32,059 bases of DNA from Auxenochlorella pyrenoidosa. Taxonomy: Eukaryota; Chlorophyta; Trebouxiophyceae; Chlorellales; Chlorellaceae. Below, piece after piece: positions 3,001 through 25,933 of this stretch. Every line of letters begins with the position of its first letter. Position 1 is the first letter of the stretch. The stretch spans positions 979,082 through 1,011,140 of the forward strand of contig KQ481993.1 in assembly GCA_001430745.1 (NCBI GenBank). Reading direction: 5' to 3'. The position numbers and the translations under genes are program-made. Below the pieces are notes generated by a model, which saw only the letters and a list, made by a program, of their open reading frames with translations, ran no database searches and had not been told where the DNA came from.

Positions 3001-4751
3001 CTCCCGCCCTGCCCCGCAGTCTGACGAGGGTGATGATCTGTCGCCACGCCCAACCGCCCGCCCAGAAGATTTCATCTTTGACCACAGCGGTGGGTGGGGG
3101 GCAGCGGAACGCGGCGGTGCATGCAGGATTCGGCACCATGCACGAGCTCTCTCAGGGCACCCAAAGCGCTGCCCCCGCGCACAGCCCTGCTGCTGCTGGC
3201 AGTCTCCAGCGGGGCCCGCCGCCTGACGGCCGCCTGACCCACTGCGAGTGGGCAGCACTGTGGCTGCGGCCGGCCCCAGATCCTCAGGATGGTGCGCATC
3301 CTGCCTGCCCATCCTGCCTCCCTCACAGACTTTGAGCCGGTGGGCATCATCACCATCGAGGATGTGCTGGAGGAGCTGCTGCAGGCGGAGATCCTGGATG
3401 AAACGGACAAGTGGGCCGGGGGGCCGGGCCGCTGCCCTGGGGGGCTGCCGCCCTCTTTGCCAGTCGATCATTGGGCACCGGAGCAGCGCGATCAGGGGCG
3501 GTCGCAGGGATGGCAGGTGCTGCAGCTCGCTTGCTTGTTTGGGTTTAACTTTAAACCTGTCTAACCGCAACGGAATTGGCGACACAGACCAGCTGCATCA
3601 AGGGAGGCTGGCAAGCGTGGCCCCGCCATGGCCTGCCTCCCGTCGCCTCCGATGAGCGACCAACCCCCATGCGCCCCCCACCCCCCTTGCGGCGCAGGTT
3701 TGTGGACAACATGCAGCGCACGCCCGTGTCGGCCGCCGGCATCATGCGCTCGCTGCCGCCGCACCTGCGCAGCGTGTTTGGCGCGCGCGCGCTGCTGCCG
3801 CGCATCGGCGGCGCCGCCTTTATGGACCTGGATGGCCCGCTGCACAACCAGGGAGCAGAGACGATGGTGGCGGTGGCGGGCCTGGGCAAGCAACCCGCGG
3901 CAGCGGCAGCGGTGGTGCGGGCGGATGGCAGCGCGGCGGCCGCGGTGGCCGTGGCAGGAGGGGACGGGGCGGTGGCTGTTGCCTCAGGTTCGGGAGCGCC
4001 GCAGCAACTAGCTGACGCTGGCAAGTCGCCGCGGCACGCCCCGCTGCCGCCACGCAGCCTCCCAGCTGGCAGCCCCGCGCCCCTCAGCCCTGCCCCCAGC
4101 CCTCGCCCAGTCAGCCCGCAGCGGCCCAGCAGCGGTGGCGGCACGCCACGGCAGCTTCCCGCAGGGCGCGCCCGCAGCGGGGCCACCACTCCCCAGGGCG
4201 CCGGCAGCAGCATGCACGGCAGCGTGTCAGCGGGCTACCTCCTCAAGCAGGGAAGCCTGGGGGCGTCCCTGGTAGCAGAGGCATTGCGGCAGGAGATTGC
4301 TGCGCAGCTGGCAAGCGCAGCCGCCGTACAGGCTGGCGGCAGCGGCCCTGCAAATCGCCGCCGGGAGCGGTCGCGCTCGCTCTCCCCGCTGCCTTCAGCC
4401 AGGCAGGCCGGCAGCAGCCGGCACAGCCTGGCCGGGCAGGGTGGCGATGCCCTTGCGGCAGCCGCTGCCGCCCGGCCCAGCCCATTTGTGGCTGATGCAC
4501 CAGCAGGCGCCTTGGGGCGGCAGAGCCGCCCGGCGCAGCCAGCGACGCAGGCGCAGGCGCAGCAGCGCACCGCGCCAGAGGAAGTGCCGGGACCCATCTT
4601 CCCGGGCCTGCGCCGCTCTCGATCGGATGCCGCGCAGAGCGTGAGCAGCGGGGCGGCCACGCCGCGGCTGGTGGTGCCGCTGCAGGCGCCACCGCCGCGA
4701 CGCAGCACCAACTTGAGCCAGCGGGTGCAAGAGCAGGCAAGAGCAGGGTAG
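1..4751 (+). CDS. CNNM/DUF21-CBS family membrane protein (magnesium/metal transport related), 5' partial
   Basis: The frame is open from the left edge, so the N-terminus may lie outside; the first in-window Met is at 89. Exons: to 193, 485-683, 955-1117, 1406-1476, 1736-1876, 2178-2324, 2536-2641, 2759-2816, 3020-3089, 3329-3410, 3698-4751, giving 731 residues from that Met. The first helix carries MSGLTLGLMSLDQVDIE, and the following exons LLVTLLVCNALAAEALP and GEIIPQAACSRYGL, which are DUF21 signatures of plant and animal CNNM proteins. A CBS pair follows: MTPIDMVFMLPTD to GHSRIPVH, then TPLYDMLKLFEIG to VGIITIEDVLEELL. Family members sit in membranes and are linked to Mg2+ and other divalent-cation efflux. 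The last exon adds a tail of about 350 residues, rich in Ala, Ser, Gly and Arg and probably disordered. The final exon may end earlier at a GC donor (see findings). Confidence 0.9.
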
Positions 4752-5334
4752 GGTGCATGCAGGACTGGCGTTGCTTCTCAGCTTCCCAGCTGTTCAGAGG
4801 AGGGCTGCACGCAGGGCAGGACTGGCCCCTGCAGACTTGCCTTCCTGCGCGCCCTACCCTCTGTGCACAGATTGATCTGCTGCAGCCGCTGCTGAACAGC
4901 GGCAGCCGGCGAACGAGTACGGACCTGTCTCCTCGCACCAGCGGCGGTGGTGCTGCAGGATGACGCAGCCGAGCTGGATCTGTTCCGTTCAGTGGTGCAG
5001 GCAGCCCAGAACAGACGTGCTCTAACCCAGTGCAGCCATCCTTTTGTATCATTGTGTTCTAATTTTCAAACCATCATTCTTTGTGTCAATCCTGGCTACG
5101 ACTGCATTGCTGCTCAACCTCCTGCTAGCCTGCAATGCAGTTACGAGCTCGAAAGGTTGAAGCTTGTGCATCCGACGTGCACTTTTGCAACCCTTTTGAA
5201 AAAGAAAAAAGAGGATAGCAGCGCCGGGTTCATTTGCAGGTTGGCAAGCGCAGCAGTGCTACATTCGAGGGGAATGGCGTTCACAGGGCGGCTGCTGCAT
5301 GTCCGTCTGGCACACACCCTGCGTGAGTTGCCGG
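4752..5334. other. Convergent intergenic region, with possible extra last exon of the CNNM gene
   Basis: This stretch separates the CNNM gene from the minus-strand ORF. After an acceptor ending at 4870, the segment 4871-4963 reads in phase as a 30-residue Ser/Arg-rich tail ending in TGA at 4961-4963. It would be joined if the preceding exon stops at a GCAAGA donor near 4737. The rest (4964-5334) is comparatively AT-rich and looks like 3' untranslated sequence. I see no other gene. Confidence 0.4.
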
Positions 5335-6312
5335 TCACTTGGCGGCATGGCGGCTGCTTGAGCGAGGGCGCCTGTGAGGCAGCTCCCCTGTGGGCTGCTG
5401 CCGCTTCTTGCCCACCCTGCTTGCCTGGCTGCGGCCCAGCCCAGCCGCCTCCTTTGGGGGTGCCTGCTGGTGTCGCTGCTGCCGCCCTCGCTGCTGCACC
5501 GGTTGCTGCTCACCCTGCTTGCTGCCCATGTGTTGCTGCTGCCTGCCGGTATTCTTCTGCTGTCCTCTGCAGGCGCGCAACGGCAGCTGCCGCAACTCCA
5601 TGCTGCTGCCTGCCCTCTGCTCAGCAGCAACAGCAGCCACAGTAGCGGCAGCAGCAGCAGCAGCGGCAGCAGCAGCAGCAGCCGCAGTAGCAGCCCTGGT
5701 GCTGACAGCAGAGTCACACTGCTTGCTTCCGCCGCTGCTGCGCTTGGCAGGGGTGCTAAGATCCACAGCTTGACTGGGGTGGCTGGCGCCACCTGGAGGT
5801 GCATCCCTTACTGCTGCTGAGGCAGCAGGTGTCGGTGCCTCTGTGCTCGCGCTCTGACGGCGTGTGCGCTTGGGCTGCTGGGTGCCAGCATCTGCAGGCA
5901 GAGGCTCAGTGGCTTGCCCATGTGATTGGTCTGCCTGCGCCTCTGCTGCTGCTGCCACTGAAGTGCTGCCACGCTCAGTGGGCGCCCCTGCCGGTGCCAG
6001 AGCGGCGCTTGAGCTTGCTTTGCGTTTGGCTGACAGCCTGCTCTGCTCTGCTGCATCCTGCTTCCCACGAGGCGGCGACACCACGGTTGCTGCCGCCGGC
6101 ACAGTTGCTGCCAAGATACGCGGGCGCAGCACCGGGCCCTGCACAACCGCGTCACCACTGCCCTCGTCAGCCGCTTCCTGCACGCCTGATCCACTGCCTG
6201 CCAGCGCCAGGAGGCCTTGCAGGGCTTGCAAAGCTCTCTCCCCAGCGACAGGGCTGAATACAGGAAGCGCCTGGCTCTGGGTGCGTGGCTGCAGCGTACT
6301 TGGAGACTGCAT
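5335..6312 (-). CDS. Hypothetical low-complexity, possibly nuclear protein (single exon)
   Basis: This is a continuous 325-residue reading frame from an ATG at 6312 to TGA at 5335. I recognise no domain. The first 45 residues are moderately hydrophobic (ALQALQGLLALAG). The middle holds a basic patch (PKRTRRQS) that could be a nuclear localisation signal, followed by a run of about 15 alanines encoded by a CAG/GCT microsatellite. The C-terminal third is rich in Gln, Arg and Lys. It is divergent from the gene starting at 6510, with about 200 bases between. In GC-rich DNA such frames can be open by chance, and overlapping frames on the other strand are also open, so this is only a moderate-confidence gene. 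Confidence 0.4.
   Translation of the reverse strand: MQSPSTLQPRTQSQALPVFSPVAGERALQALQGLLALAGSGSGVQEAADEGSGDAVVQGPVLRPRILAATVPAAATVVSPPRGKQDAAEQSRLSAKRKASSSAALAPAGAPTERGSTSVAAAAEAQADQSHGQATEPLPADAGTQQPKRTRRQSASTEAPTPAASAAVRDAPPGGASHPSQAVDLSTPAKRSSGGSKQCDSAVSTRAATAAAAAAAAAAAAAATVAAVAAEQRAGSSMELRQLPLRACRGQQKNTGRQQQHMGSKQGEQQPVQQRGRQQRHQQAPPKEAAGLGRSQASRVGKKRQQPTGELPHRRPRSSSRHAAK
5641..5692. repeat. CAG/CGG-type trinucleotide microsatellite
   Basis: Imperfect tandem CAG units, interrupted by CGG and CCG, fill this stretch. On the minus strand they encode the polyalanine run of the orphan ORF. The repeat could vary in length between strains. Confidence 0.8.
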
Positions 6313-6509
6313 GCTGCCCCTCTTCCCAGCTGAGCTTGCCCAAGCGCTACTGGACGGAGGGAAGCCGATTTTGAATTGAGATATTGCTTTCCACTACGTC
6401 AGCAGGCGCCCCCTCCTCATGCCCTGTCTTGCACGATGAGTTGATGCCTCCTGATTTCTGTGTCTGATCTCTTGCCGGTGTGGTGTGTACCGTTGGGCAG
6501 CTTACAGCC
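6313..6509. promoter_or_regulatory. Putative divergent promoter region
   Basis: About 200 bases lie between the start of the minus-strand orphan ORF (6312) and the start of the plus-strand duplicated-motif gene (6510). Base composition drops to near-balanced around 6365-6480. If both genes are real they would share this region. I cannot point to a specific factor site. Confidence 0.3.
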
Positions 6510-7740
6510 ATGCAGGAGAGGGGAGGCAGTGGTGGCCTGGCACAAGCAAGCAGTGGCAGCCTAAAGCGGCCTCTGGACTCTCAACAGGACCTCAGTGAGT
6601 TCTGTAGGCTGCTGCGTGAGGATGCAAACCTGGACAGCAACTTTGCCAAGCGGCATGGTTCAACTGGAGCACCCCCTGAACCCATTGTATTGGCCTTTTC
6701 CTCTGAAGGACCTCCACAGGTGTTAGGGGAGCAGCAGAAGACCACGGACAGTGCGAGAGAAGGCGGCGGCGATGCAGCCAGCACGCGGCCCGCCTCTCCT
6801 GAAGCCGCTCATGGCTGTGGCGTGCCTGCAGGCACGACCGCTCAGGACCCAGCAGCATATTTAAATGGCAAGCCGAGCAGCAAGCCAGAAAATCAGGGCG
6901 ACAGCATGGAGCGCTCGAGCGGACGCTTGCAGGGGCAGCGCGACGGCGGCAGCTGCGGCAAGGTGAGGAAGGCGAGGAGGCACAGCACAGCGCGCACTGT
7001 CGGCGCTGGCGAGCCACGGCGCCCGTGGCGTGCCGCCCCGCCGCCCTTTGCTGGGCCCGCCTTCCACGCTGCGCCGCTGCACCCACCGTGCCTGTCTGAG
7101 CGCGGCCGATACTGGGTGGCGGCCTTCAGGCAGGAGCTGGCAGAGGATGCGGCGGTGGCCCCAGGGGATGCCCCCGCCCTGCTGGCAGAGTATGCCGCTG
7201 AGCTGGCGCAGGAGGAGCAGTTTGCGCACCCGGCCACTGCCGCCGCCCATCCACGGCTGAACGCGCGCGGCCGGCAGTGAGTGGAGGGAATGGGGGTGGG
7301 TGTGAGGTTGCGGCCCCACTCTCTTGGTACCCTTTGTTCCGGTGCAGTGCTGGGCATCTTGTAGGCACACCCGCCGGCATTCAACCGCAGCCCTGCCACA
7401 CGCCTGCCCTTGAAGACACCCCGCAGCCCAGGGTTCTCGCCAATCTTGCTGCCCGGCCCCGGAGCAGACAGGATGGGAACAGCTCAGGGGCGTGTCAGTC
7501 ACGCATCCTAACCACTTTTGATCCGACCTTTGCAGGTTTGTAGCGGCCTTCCGCCGCGAGCTGGCTGGCCACGGCAGGCAGCGGCTGGCAGGCGTCGACC
7601 CCGCGGAGCTGGTTACCGAGTATGCTGCAGAGCTGGAGCTTGAGGCACCCTTCTCAGCAGCGCCAGCAGCATCAGGAGGCGCCGCTGTCCGGTTGGGGGC
7701 GTCAGCCCCACAGCAGAGCGCGCTGCAGGGCCTGACGTAG
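6510..7740 (+). CDS. Unknown protein with a duplicated RxxVAAFRxEL...EYAAEL motif
   Basis: Two exons, 6510-7276 and 7536-7740, join in phase through a GTGAGT donor and a TGCAG acceptor and encode about 323 residues. The ATG at 6510 is chosen because the frame upstream offers only a GTG. I recognise no family. The N-terminus contains DLSEFCRLLREDANLDSNF, a possible helical motif, followed by a polar low-complexity stretch and a basic patch (KVRKARRHS). The C-terminal part has two copies of a roughly 40-residue motif. The first (7107-7223) runs from RYWVAAFRQELA to EYAAELAQEEQF. The second (7272-7276 plus 7536-7653) runs from RQFVAAFRRELA to EYAAELELEAPF and straddles the intron. The gene is convergent with ATG5, whose stop is 170 bases away. 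Its function is unknown. Confidence 0.7.
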
Positions 7741-10265: not shown

Positions 10266-10547
10266 GGCGAAGCACTGGGAAGCTGATCATCGCGCTCAGA
10301 GCTTGAAAGAAGCACTCTCGTCTCGAGGGCGCAGCACGGTCGCAGCAGCGCAGCAGAATGGACGGGGCAGGATTTCGACACTCGCATCGCACCCCAATAG
10401 TGCCGAAGCTTTGGTTTCTTTATTCTTTCACCGCACAGCCCTCCTACTGCTCGGCCCACCGACTTGCTGAGCGGCGTGAGCTGCAGAGGCCTTGCGGCAT
10501 TCTTTCGTTCGGTTGTTTGCGATTTTCTATATCGCTGAGCAGTGACC
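10266..10547. promoter_or_regulatory. Divergent promoter between ATG5 and the PPR gene
   Basis: Only 282 bases separate the two start codons, so both promoters and 5' untranslated regions must fit here. The PPR side (about 10495-10540) is relatively AT-rich and contains CTATATCG. No specific factor site can be claimed. Confidence 0.45.
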
Positions 10548-13500
10548 ATGGCCGCTACAAGCGGCCTGGCGCTCTGCGCTCCCCGGCAGGGTGCCAGGCC
10601 CTCTAGGCCGGGCAGGGTGCTTGTGGCGGCCTCTTACACGTCCCGAGCGTTGAGACGGGGTCCAGCTGAGCCTGCAGCCGTGGCTGGGATGGTCCTGGAG
10701 TGTGCGGCGCAGCCCCTTGGTGGTGGCGGGGGAGCGGTGGCAGTGCAGCCGCAGGCAGCCCCGGCATCACGCAGTCCCGGCAACACGTGGGAGCTGATCT
10801 ACACACGGAAGAGCGGCAGCGACGGCAGCAGCGAGACGCCAGTGTTGCAGGCAGCGCCGCGGCGGCCCACCGCAGCACCTGCCACGGTGGCGGGCCAGCC
10901 TGGTGCAGACCCCCGGCTGGTGCGGCTCACGCAGCAGCTCATCGCCAGGGCTGGCAGGCCTGCAGAAATGCAGGCCCTGCTGGCGGGGCAGGCGCTGGAG
11001 GCGGCAGACGTGCGCCGGCTGCTCACGTACCTCGACCGCCAGGGCGCCGCTGACGTGGCGCTGGATGCCTTCCACGCCATGAAGCCGCTGCCGCAGTTCC
11101 ACACGGGTGGGTGCTGGTTGTGCGGCAAGCGTGTGCAAGCCCCACGCCTGCTGCCGCGACGAGGGCACCGTTCGCTGCTGCCCTGCGGGCGTGCTGCGCT
11201 GCTGCTGGTTCCGACCTGGTGTCACCGCACCAGGCGCTTTCCTTCCGCTGCAGACGACCCCGTGCTGCGCACCAAACTCATCAAGATGCACTCGCGGCGC
11301 CCCAAAGACACGGCTGCCGCCCTGGCGCTGTACGATGAAATGGTGGCAGACCGGGTGGCGCCGGATGCCGTGTGCTACAACACTGCACTCGGGGCGGCAG
11401 GTGCGGCCCCTGCAGGCGTGCATTCCCGAGCGGTGGCGCCCCTCTCTGGCATGCGTATGTCATGCTGCCCCGCAGCTGCAGCACCGCCCAGCCATGCTGC
11501 GCGGCCGGCGCTGCCAGGCTGCCGACCACCTCCCCTGCGGCACCCCGCCTGTTTCACAGGCCTGGGCCAGCACTGGGAGCGGGTGCTGTCGATCCTGGAG
11601 GACATGCGGGCCGCGGGGGTGCCCTGGGATGCCTTCACCTGCAGCGCGCTGCTGAGCGCCTGCCAGGCGTGCGGGCGGTGGGAGCAGGCGCTGGACTGGT
11701 TCCGCCAGGCGCAGTCCCTGCCGGGTGAGGCACGAGGCGACGCGACAGGGCAACATACCGGGAGTGCAGCAGCAGCCACTGCACACGCTCTGCATGCGGC
11801 GGAGGCTCGTGGCCTTTGCCAGCCAGTCGGGCTGGCATGGAGAGCTGCACTCTCACAGAGGAATCCCTTCCACGCTTTCCTCCCTGCCAGCAGGCCTGCA
11901 GCTGAATGTGGTGCACTACACGACGCTCATGAGCTGCCTGCAGAAGGCGGGGCAGGTGGGCTCCCGGCTTGGCACCCTGCCCCTGCTGCATGCACGACGG
12001 CGCCCTGACTGGCGGCAGTCCCCTGCCCTGGGTTGGTCTCGAGGTGCTCAGCAGTGGGCAGCAGTGCGTCCCACCCGGCCGCCTGCACCCATCCTGCGTG
12101 CCCCTGCCTGCAGTGGGAGCAGTCGATGCGCGTGTTCAAGGAGATGGAGGGGCAGGGCATTGTGCCAGACGTGGTGGCCCACAACGCAGCCATCGCCGCC
12201 TGCGCCAAGGTGCGCACCCGCGGCAGCTGCTGCGGGCAGCAATTGGGACCGCCATCTGGCCCTGCACCTGGCTTGTGGGCTGCGGTCCGAGGCGGTCCCA
12301 TGCAGCTGGGGCTCCGCCTCCTGCACATCCTGGAGATGCTGCACCCAGCCTGCGGCCTGCCCGTTCCCTCGTATGCCGGCATTTCCAAGTGAACCTTGGC
12401 TGGATTGCACAGCCCGCTCGACACGCCGCGTTACCTCCCCCCCTGCCTCCCACGCAGGGCGGCGAGTGGGAGAAGGCGTGGGCGGTGTTCCTGGCGATGA
12501 AGCAGGCCGGGCTGCGCCCCTCCACCGTCTCGTACAACGCACTCATCTCCGCCTGCGAGCGCTGCGGCCAGGCCGATAGGTGCGGCGGCCCGCAGGCAGC
12601 CCCGGGGCCAGCTGTGGCGCCGCGCTTGCGCTGGCCGCCAGCGGCAGGTGTACCGGCAGGGCGCCCCGCTGTGATGGTGCGCCCAGCTGCAGCCGCTCGA
12701 CGCGCCCTGCCCTGCGGCCCCGCCCACACCCCCGCAGGGCCCTGGAGGTCTTTGCCAGCATGCAGCGCCAGCAGGTGGCCCCCAACACTGTCACCTACAA
12801 CACCCTCATCTCCGCCTGCGCCAAGGCGGGCCTGTACGCGCGCGCGCAGGCGCTGCACGCCGAGATGCAGGCGGCGGGCGTCCCGGACGACGTGTTCACC
12901 CTCACCGCGCTCATCACAGGTGGGTGCGGTCGCCGAGACCGACCGGGCCGGGCCGGCTGTCCAGCCTTGCACTCCCCTTTCATGTGGCTGCGCTCGCCAA
13001 GTGAGTTCAGCGCGAGGCCTTGCTTGCACATGAAGGTAGGGGCAGGGAGCCGGCGCAGCATTGGGCTCACGCGCACCCCCCGCCCCCGCCCCCGCGCCGC
13101 AGCCTGCGAGCGCATCGGGCACTGGCAGGGCGCGGAGCAGCACTTCCAGGAGTTCCAGCGGCGGGGCATCCAGCCCAACACGGTGGCTTTCAACCGCCTC
13201 ATCTCGGCGCTGGGCCGCGGCGGGCAGTGGGAGCAGGCGCTGGCCGCCTTCCAGGCGATGCAGCAGCCAGCAGCCGAGCAGCTGCAGCACCGGCAGCAGC
13301 GCGGCGGCAGCAGGGTGGATGTTGGGAGCAGCCGAGCCAGCCAGCAACGCAGCGGCAGCAGCAGCAGCAGCAGCAGCTTGGATCCTCCGGCCCCGAGCCC
13401 GCGAGCACCAGCAGCGGCGACGATGGCCCCGATGTCACAAGGGGCGAGCTTGGCGGCTCCCCCTGCAGGGCAGGGTCAGCGGGGCCGGCGACGGAGCAGC

Positions 13501-22432: not shown

Positions 22433-23777
22433 ATGGGGTTGGCCCACCTTCATGAGCGGGCTACTGGTGAACTTGGGATGCCCTCTCCCGATTTCAAGTT
22501 CCTGTTCACCCCCAAATGCATGAAAATCATGGGCGCGGCAGCACAGGTGCGCCCTTGCCCAAGGTCCCAAGTCCAGCTGGGGTGTAGTGTGCGCAGGGAC
22601 TGATGTCGATCGCTGGTATCAAATTTCAAGTGCTCAACAAATTGCAGAACAGCGCCGATCGCGGCGCTGCAGTGCCAACTGGCCCCGCCCGCTCGCCAGC
22701 GGCACTCACCAGCTGCCACACATTCACCCGCCGTTCCCTTCCTCTCCTCCCCCTCGCCCCCTGCAGGACAGCTACAAAACAGCTGGCTTTGCCGAGTTCT
22801 ACGACCTCATGGTCGAGTCGCTGCCTCCTGAGTTTGAGGCCGGCAGGGATGTGCACGACGTCTACTGGCCCCTGCTCACCGAGCTCGTCGCCGCCGCTGG
22901 CGGCAGCCCCGGCCCCAGCGCAACAACAGTGCTTGACCTGTGCTGCGGCAGCGGGCGCGTGGCGCTGGGGCTCGCGGGAAAGTGGGCCGCATGGGACGGC
23001 CGCCCAGCTGGCGCAGCGCTGGCCCTGACGGGGGTGGATAGCAGCGAGGAGATGCTGGCAGCAGCGCGGGCCAAGCAGGCAGCGCAGGCAGGCAGCCCCG
23101 GCCCTGGCAGCTGTAGCAGCAGCGGCGGCAGCAGCGGGAACAGCGAAGCGGGGGCAGCCAGCATCTCTTGGCGCTGCGCCGACATGGCCGCGCTCGACTC
23201 TGCCTCGGCTCTGGCACCGCTCCGCGGCCGGTGCAGCCTGGCCGTTGTGTCGGCCGGCTCTTTCCACCACCTCCTCACCGCCGCAGACCAGGGGGCATGC
23301 CTTCGCGGCCTGGCAGCCTGCCTGCAGCAGCCGCCGGCCCCGGCATACGTGGTGCTCAATATCTTCTGCCCCTCCCACCTCCAAGCAGCCCCTGGCGGGG
23401 CCTTGGTGGCAGGCGCCTTCCGCCGCACCTGCCTGTCGCAGTCGCGAGAGCAGGCCGCCGACGGCGGCTCGGTCTGGCGGCAACGCTTTGCACTGGAGCG
23501 CTACGCCAGCGCAGCAGCGGCTGCGGCAGCAGCTGGCGGCAGCAGTGAGGGCGTCCGCAGCGAGGCGCCGCTCTGGCGACGGGATGAGGAGTGGGCCCTG
23601 CGGGAGGTGAGCCCCGCTGAGCTGGAGCAGCGGGCAGGAGCGGCAGGGCTCCGGGTGGTGCGCCGCCAGGCTCACTGGTCTGATGGCTGGCCGGGAGCGG
23701 ATGGCGGTAGCCAGGGCAGCGACAGCGGGTGCAGCCTGGAGGATGCACGCATTTTTGTGCTGCGGCTGGCGGCCTGA
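22433..23777 (+). CDS. Class I SAM-dependent methyltransferase
   Basis: The long second exon (22767-23777) encodes a Rossmann-fold methyltransferase of the Methyltransf_25/11 type. Motif I is VLDLCCGSGRVALGL, the acidic strand is ALTGVDSSEEMLAAA, then come CADMAALD and VVSAGSFHHLLTAADQGACL. Upstream, KTAGFAEFYDLMVESLP resembles the YDx segment that often precedes motif I. Exon 1 is less certain: 22433-22546 joins in phase 0 through a GTGCGC donor and a CTGCAG acceptor and adds 38 residues, giving 374 in total; an internal Met at 22478 is an alternative start. Two low-complexity insertions (Ser/Gly-rich and Ala-rich) interrupt the domain. The substrate cannot be predicted. It is convergent with the pseudoprotease gene, with stops 223 bases apart. 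Confidence 0.82.
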
Positions 23778-24000: not shown

Positions 24001-25339
24001 TCAGTCGGAGCCCGCCCCCGCCTCTGCAGCCGCCTCAACCTTCTTGCCCAGCCAGTCTGCGTAGCGCGGCAGCCAGATGTAGAGCGCGGGGGAGCTGGCG
24101 CTGGCCACTGCCCGGTCGGTGCTGCAGGAGAAGCCGGAAGTGAGGAGGCCCAGCTGGAGGGGGCCGCCGCCGGGCGCGGCGCGCGGCAGCAGCAGCGCCC
24201 CGCCCGCGTTGCCGCTGGCGCAGGCGCGGAAAGCGTGGCTCAGGCCTGCGGTGGCGGGCAGGGGCGGGGGCGTCCCGGTCGCTGTCAAGCCAGAGGGATG
24301 CCAGTCTGCTGCCTGCGCTGTGGTTGTGCCGTCCATCCTCTACCACGTCCCACACCCTCGCAAGCCCCAGGCCCGTTCAAACCCCGAGCGCGACGGCATG
24401 CCCGGATTCCCTGCCATCTCGCTCGCCTGTGCAGGCCTGCGGGGCGGGCCCGCTGTGTGCGGGGGTGGCCGCCCACCAGCGGCCGTAGGCCGTCTGCAGG
24501 CCCCCGCACTCCTCCTCGGGCAGCAGCACCAGGTCATCCACGTGCAGCTGCGGGAAAAAGCCGTCGGCGCTCAGGCTGCCGTAGCCCAGCGCGCGCACCG
24601 CGGTGGAGTTGGGGGGGTAGTCAAAGGAGGCTGCAGGGCGAGGGGGGGCCCACTTGGGGCTCATGCACGGGTGGACGGCGGCACAGTGTGCTGCCGTTCA
24701 TGCGGTGCACAAGCGCACGCAGCGATGACATGCTGGCACGGAGCCCTGCCTGCAAGGGCCCTGCGGGCAGGGCCGGTCAGGGCAACGAGCACTGCACGCC
24801 GCACCGTCGGCTATGGCAACCGGCTTGTGCTTGCTGGGCTTGTTCAGGCGCAGCAGGGCCAGGTTGTTCTGGTTTGTGTCGCTGGACTTGAAGTCTGGGT
24901 GCACCTCCACGTGCTCCACCTTGCGGATCTCGTACCGCCCCTCCCGCCTGCGCGGCGGACCGAGGAGGACACTGTTGCGCACACGGAGGAATGGCAGGCA
25001 GGCAGGCACAGAGAGCAAGGGCGGCGTTCTCTGCAATCTGCGGGGTGGCTCGCCTGACCTCGCCTACAGGACATGGCACACATCCACACACCTGAATTCG
25101 TCTAGAAAGAAGTTGTAGTAGCCCAAGTAGACAAATGCGGGTTTAGAGCGTGCGCAGGATGCGGAGGTCAGAACCAGCTCTGGCGCAACCAGTGCCCCGC
25201 TGCAGAGAGGCACCTCTTTGCTGGTGATGAGTGCCGCAAACGGGTAGAGGTCTGCAAGAGTGTGTGAGGCCGCAGCGGCAAGCCTGCACAGAGAGAGGAG
25301 AACGAGGACCAGCAGCAACGGCGACATGCGGGTGGGCAT
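24001..25339 (-). CDS. Secreted trypsin-fold (S1 family) pseudoprotease
   Basis: Exons in coding order 25339-25092, 24947-24805, 24630-24427 and 24245-24001 join in phase to 279 residues. The N-terminus is a signal peptide (hydrophobic residues about 7-24, SPLLLVLVLLSLCRLAAAA), so the product is probably exported. The chymotrypsin fold is recognisable: PFAALITSKEVPLCSGALVA, LVLTSASC, HPDF, NNLALLRL, ALGYGS, ACTG, CASGNAGGAL, GLLTSGFSC and IWLPRYADWL. At the His57 position (LTAAHC in active enzymes) there is S61; at Asp102 (NDIALL) there is N111; at Ser195 (GDSGGP) there is A212, with N211 replacing Asp194. The Cys46/Cys62 pair next to the lost histidine is kept. It should therefore be folded but not catalytic. 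A binding, inhibitor or scaffold role is possible, but unknown. Intron 3 has a GC donor. Confidence 0.85.
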
Positions 25340-25933
25340 GTTTGTTGCAAACCGGACGGCTGAATGTTTCGTACACATATGTGCAGTGCAATGCATCGTC
25401 GATAGACTCACAATGTCGCTGTAAACAACAGAACAGCCGCCAGAAGGCCGCCACAAGGCGCGCCCATGGCGGGCCGGCGGTTGCAGCCAGCGATCTGGCT
25501 CTTTACAGCTTTATCGAGACTCGATCAGTAACCGGTGCGCGGAGCTGCGCCCCCTGATGCCAAAACGGGCGCAGGGAGGGGAAGAAAGTGGAAGCAGTTG
25601 CAGGCAGTTCCTGACAGAAATGCCGCCCAGTCAATTCGAGGAGGCGAAGAATATCGATCGGCTGCGATAGACCTGCGTCGCTGCAGCCCCGCTGAAATCG
25701 GCACGCTGCGATGCTGGCACTGGCGCCGTGGCCACGCGTGGTGGCGCCACTGCCGCACGTGTGCGCACCACGGGCCCAGTGTCATTCACTCGACTCACTT
25801 GCGGGCTGAACGAGAAGACAGTATTTACAAAAGGATTTGATCATGTTGCAAAGCATTCAACCCCTGATGGATCTGTGCCCAATGCCGACATAGCAGCGTA
25901 TACCCCTCACTCCGCCGCACAAGCAAGCATCAC
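25340..25933. other. Intergenic region between nitrate reductase 3' end and the pseudoprotease start
   Basis: About 590 bases lie between two tandem minus-strand genes. The part next to 25933 should hold the nitrate reductase 3' untranslated region with a TGTAA element at 25825-25829; the part next to 25340 should be the promoter and leader of the pseudoprotease. An upstream in-frame Met exists at 25456 but would bury the signal peptide. No other gene is seen. Confidence 0.5.
25825..25829 (-). terminator. Candidate TGTAA polyadenylation signal for nitrate reductase
   Basis: TGTAA on the minus strand lies 105 bases past the nitrate reductase stop, in a locally AT-rich stretch. Assignment is by similarity to the known green-algal signal and by position. 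Confidence 0.4.

Follow-up and report, generated by a model that had tools for sequence, protein, structure and literature searches.

The 32,059-nucleotide stretch of Auxenochlorella pyrenoidosa DNA analyzed here (contig KQ481993.1, positions 979,082 to 1,011,140; hereafter the window) carries on its minus strand a gene whose product resembles S1 family proteases and lacks their catalytic residues, raising the question of whether this gene is decaying or is maintained for a role other than proteolysis. A first-pass annotation, made from the letters alone, had favored a maintained non-enzymatic trypsin-fold protein. This proposal is supported by orthologues that, down to 49% identity, retain the reading frame, the cysteines and the exon junctions, all of them without the His/Asp/Ser triad, which argues for maintenance rather than decay. 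We propose that the gene product is probably a disulfide-stabilized S1-fold protein, no longer catalytic and retained under selection for binding; from its hydrophobic N-terminus, it is probably secreted. Of this explanation, the S1 fold and the replacement of the known catalytic residues are well supported.

The window protein matches the Pfam Trypsin family (PF00089) over residues 33-264 with 66.1 bits (cut-off 20.6), in a scan that used the N-terminus of the first-pass annotation, which has the same length. The S1-type sequence and the cysteine framework recognized earlier are confirmed; positions were numbered from this framework and from an alignment to active paralogues of the same genome. 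Ser occupies position 57 (LTSASC), Asn position 102 (NNLALL) and Ala position 195 (GNAGG), with Asn at 194 too, confirming at their window positions the four replacements already read at first pass (His57 to Ser, Asp102 to Asn, Asp194 to Asn and Ser195 to Ala). The protein is also devoid of an IVGG-type N-terminus, so that neither partner of the activation salt bridge remains. Further changes are an Arg in place of the Asp189 of trypsin, two residues ahead of Cys191, one additional residue between Cys191 and Gly193, and a longer loop after Cys220. The double beta-barrel chymotrypsin fold is predicted to be kept, as judged by the structure modeling that was proposed at first pass. Trypsin was the sole Pfam domain matched in the window protein (E up to 1) and in three of its relatives, P0003, P0004 and P0009 (E up to 0.01), which score 63.1 to 79.5 bits against it.

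Orthologues with the same substitutions, whose search in other algae had been suggested by the first-pass annotation, were found in Micractinium and Chlorella sorokiniana. Two protein searches, in which the 7996 and 7997 candidates with the most words in common were scored, gave five full-length relatives, and more distant family members may exist:

P0001, Micractinium sp. CCAP 211/92: 245/279 residues identical to the window protein
P0002, M. tetrahymenae: 242/277 identical
P0003, M. conductrix, record name 'serine protease': 182/278 identical
P0004, unnamed record: 187/279 identical
P0009, C. sorokiniana, record name 'serine endopeptidase': 130/263 identical

P0004 is an unbroken frame of 293 residues carried by contigs no longer than 1097 bases. 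The window gene occupies 1467 bases, and P0004 is therefore probably transcript-derived. In the six full-length members, window protein included, His57, Asp102 and Ser195 of active S1 peptidases are replaced throughout: position 57 reads S, A, A, S, S, A, position 195 reads A, A, A, V, A, L, and positions 102 and 194 are Asn in all six. The IVGG-type motif needed for zymogen activation is likewise missing from every member, and the Arg two residues before Cys191 and cysteines 46, 62, 172, 197, 207 and 239 are invariant (6/6). Six partial frames (P0005-P0008, P0010 and P0011), excluded from these counts, agree where they cover the positions, with S at 57 (P0010, P0011), N at 102 (P0005, P0006, P0008, P0010) and N at 194 followed by V or L at 195 (P0005, P0006, P0007). 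Because proteins of other organisms are replaced at the same positions, neither chance nor an error in sequencing this assembly accounts for the replacements. The three remaining matches of the second search (E 5.2e-6 to 6.7e-5), P0012 from Aggregicoccus and the unnamed P0013 and P0014, were ruled out as orthologues by their TAAHC and GDSGG or GDSGA motifs. No relative was found among 31 pattern matches in viral_contigs or among 192 in the prokaryotic genome_contigs; a search with residues 140-295 of P0009 recovered only P0009 itself and is little informative, since it missed the known relatives too.

How far such conservation departs from neutral drift was evaluated by simulating the coding sequence (300 runs per identity level, kappa 2, no indels). 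Runs free of stop codons amounted to 29% at 88% identity, 6% at 71% and 0.3% at 49%. Invariant columns per 20 residues number 12 at 201-220, the former active-site segment, 11 at 161-180, 10 at both 41-60 and 241-260, and 4-5 at 1-40, 121-140 and 181-200, with a single one in the last 19 residues of the protein. Family conservation and the simulation thus point to an S1 domain without catalytic residues in an evolutionarily kept gene, that is, to an S1 pseudoprotease. The family forms one clade (100/100) with a long stem in both trees computed.

The gene model was obtained by homology with a spliced aligner that we wrote; it covers 1467 bases from start to stop and encodes 279 residues (a slash marks the splice site):

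Exon 1, 25412..25467, minus strand: start codon and hydrophobic N-terminus MGAPCGGLLAAVLLFTAT, donor ATT/GTGAGT in phase 2, placed from the N-termini of P0001 and P0002, the spliced alignment and a protein match at the site
Intron 1, 25284..25411, minus strand: 128 bases, containing the earlier-proposed ATG at 25339
Exon 2, 25092..25283, minus strand: N-terminal portion of the domain with the Cys42 and Cys58 equivalents and His57 replaced by Ser (25159-25157)
Exon 3, 24805..24947, minus strand: Asp102 replaced by Asn (24865-24863)
Exon 4, 24427..24630, minus strand: conserved 140-180 region (GSLSADGFFPQLH, LLPEEECGGLQTAYGRWWA) to the Cys182 equivalent
Intron 4, 24246..24426, minus strand: 181 bases, GC-AG type, phase 1, with the same protein junction in P0001-P0004
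Exon 5, 24001..24245, minus strand: former active-site segment with Asn194 (24210-24208) and Ala195 (24207-24205), lengthened 220 loop, C-terminal helix and stop TGA (24003-24001)

The first-pass annotation had described four in-frame exons with intact splice sites and a signal peptide. The exons are indeed in frame, five being likelier than four from the comparison with orthologues, and the last intron has a GC donor; the peptide read at that time is probably intron 1 sequence, and a hydrophobic N-terminus is found instead on the replacement exon 1. The ATG at 25339 falls in intron 1, and 25467-25412 was preferred to an exon 1 starting there: MGAP opens both close orthologues (P0001, MGAPRGDLLAAVLL; P0002, MGAPSGGLLAACLL), and the same peptide is encoded in the window just ahead of a GTGAGT donor. 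The aligner accepted the phase-2 junction from this exon to 25283, yielding a protein equal in length to P0001; a second transcript may initiate at 25339. The intron 4 donor is CAG/GCGAGC, no GT donor of matching phase being listed in the stretch, and the orthologues carry the same protein junction (ACTG-LSHAF). P0001-P0004 align without gaps across all later junctions, and the read-through frames P0005, P0006 and P0010 leave and rejoin the family sequence at the junctions of the model. An alternative exon structure restoring the triad, which would have overturned the first-pass proposal, is not in sight, and the orthologues lack the triad too. GC-AG introns with donors such as CAG/GCAAGT or CAG/GCAAGC recur in S1 gene models of this alga (L014, L019, L022). 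Comparison of the intron-reading frame P0006 with P0003 suggests one additional intron, within the last exon, in M. conductrix relative to the window gene.

The genome contains other S1 genes, for which the models are homology-based, without transcripts, L016 and L019 being read differently between passes. Pfam Trypsin gave 21 exon-level matches corresponding to 17 genes but not to the window gene, since this search misses genes with low-scoring exons; further altered S1 genes may therefore exist. With L034, 18 other S1-like genes were read, and His, Asp and Ser were all found in 13 of them (L010, L011, L012a, L012b, L013-L019 without the second L016 gene, L022 and L034). The other five were read in part, L023 alone having an altered active-site stretch:

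L012c: His and Ser
Second L016 gene, C57:842293 or 842257: His and Asp intact
L020: His and an Asp, Ser not found
L021: His and Ser, with an NDVMLLYL stretch that is unaligned to position 102
L023, C49:26053-26172, minus strand: C-terminal end only, weak S1 match (E 4.6e-4), GMSG versus GDSG of S1 enzymes; it may represent a different type of S1 protein or, after the window gene, a second altered S1 gene

Searches of the genome with the window protein and P0009 found no second dead paralogue. Besides the window gene they matched C2:1592898 (L034, intact triad), the second L016 gene, and C35:242740 and C2:1145962 (L035, L036), where no S1 gene was seen. A Trypsin_2 match at L024 did not lead to a usable gene model. 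L012 (C1:132000-141500) comprises three tandem S1 genes on the minus strand. Near the window gene lies an active relative:

L010, locus 4541-6750, C26:1015681 onward: S1 protease with eight coding exons in the model

The starts of L010 and of the window gene are about 11 kb apart, and the two genes are divergently oriented. L010 has an intact triad and the motifs LVGG, TAGHC, PNDLAL and GDSGG, and it has two phase-1 intron positions in common with the window gene.

These data bear on several other explanations. That all catalytic residues are lost would fit a decaying pseudogene, which we nevertheless hold to be extremely improbable given the unbroken orthologue frames with the same losses down to 49% identity, the invariant cysteines, the shared junctions and the neutral simulation; the same replacements and junctions in proteins of other organisms also make a sequencing error or a wrong exon structure unlikely. 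It is scarcely more probable that the old fold now carries a new catalytic arrangement, unrelated to the former one, and that the protein is still an enzyme: polar residues such as D106 and H160 are invariant in all six members and the old active-site segment is well conserved, but the sequence reveals no Ser/Cys-His-Asp set near the old cleft, C. sorokiniana has Arg in place of H202, and Asp194 and the activating N-terminus are gone. A decoy soaking up microbial, viral or algal inhibitors that would block active S1 proteases is improbable as well. The fold is predicted to be kept, active S1 genes exist in the genome, and Kazal-type inhibitors occur in the green alga Chlamydomonas, according to excerpts of PMC8643629; such a decoy, however, requires an open enzyme-like cleft, and this cleft is probably remodeled because of the changes at 195 (Val or Leu in relatives), 194 (Asn) and 189 (Arg) and of the longer loop after Cys220.

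As a possible, if rather unlikely, special form of binding, the protein could serve as the dedicated cofactor of one of the alga's own active S1 proteases, such as that encoded by L010, or regulate it allosterically, much as insect serine protease homologues act on their partner enzymes. The proximity of L010 and the shared introns are consistent with it, as is the position of L010 as sister to the family (87/90, not starred) in a tree from which four rows were dropped (P0012-P0014 and the long-branched L011). This relation is not recovered in the other tree, though, a grouping of the family with L022 is not rejected (p-AU 0.189), and the proximity may merely reflect an old duplication. More speculative, and in our judgment unlikely, is that a secreted trypsin-fold pseudoprotease arose in Chlorellaceae independently of the animal ones and acts as a cell-surface ligand or cofactor through its dead active-site face, perhaps in contacts with microbes or ciliate hosts. 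M. conductrix is a ciliate endosymbiont. So is M. tetrahymenae, the source of P0002, as stated in excerpts of PMC12516953.

We thus favor a binding protein of a more general kind, which could have arisen as follows. An S1 protease gene would have been duplicated, and catalysis then lost once, before the split of Micractinium and C. sorokiniana. The domain would remain zymogen-like and never be activated, and a remodeled face formed by three loops (170, 186-195 and the lengthened 220) would bind a putative partner, either extracellular or within the secretory pathway. Some points weigh against this explanation. The comparison comprises six full-length sequences only, of which three are closely related; the invariant columns show a modest variation in density along the protein, and any S1 fold would keep some of them; and the loops of the proposed binding face are poorly modeled, with pLDDT below 50 at 180-195 and 236-251 of P0001. 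The neutral simulation was run without indels, which would make it stricter, and ignores the avoidance of stops by gene callers, which would make it laxer.

Elsewhere in the window, the plus strand carries at 22764-23777 the end of a neighboring gene with a Methyltransf_25 domain (35 bits, cut-off 27) and at 10542-12008 an open frame with pentatricopeptide repeats (PPR_2, 39.2 bits, cut-off 30). Rfam and tRNA scans of the window gave no matches.

Compared with active S1A peptidases (PF00089; complement factor D, chymotrypsin, kallikrein 6), the window protein differs by the absence of the catalytic His/Asp/Ser, of Asp194 and of the IVGG-type N-terminus, and by Arg189 and the longer 220 loop. 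P0003 and P0009 are replaced at the same positions and are named as enzymes in databases though the triad is absent; for this family, these record names mislead. Human azurocidin (heparin-binding protein) is an inactive, single-domain, secreted S1 fold, which the window protein would resemble. In azurocidin, His57 is Ser and Ser195 is Gly. The family profile matches it with E 3.8e-9 and matches active kallikrein 6 better (E 5.1e-16); azurocidin also has an antimicrobial and heparin-binding role. Insect serine protease homologues similarly keep an S1 domain without catalysis for a non-enzymatic role (excerpts of PMC6901238 and PMC3764210); many have clip domains, whereas Pfam finds none in the four algal members scanned. 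S1 pseudoproteases are established regulators in animal immunity, and this family would offer a clean system to address how a protease becomes a binding protein, as its members are compact and single-domain, the searches of this genome found no second close copy, and an active relative is encoded close by. Excerpts of PMC8643629 report DegP and a V8-type S1 protease with a Kazal domain and contain no S1 pseudoprotease, and the FtsHi pseudo-proteases of Arabidopsis, as presented in the excerpts surveyed, belong to a different protease class. Since no S1 pseudoprotease from algae was found described in the literature surveyed, which was available in part, and non-catalytic S1 proteins are, from the same sources, well known in animals, we regard this family as a new lineage of a known kind.
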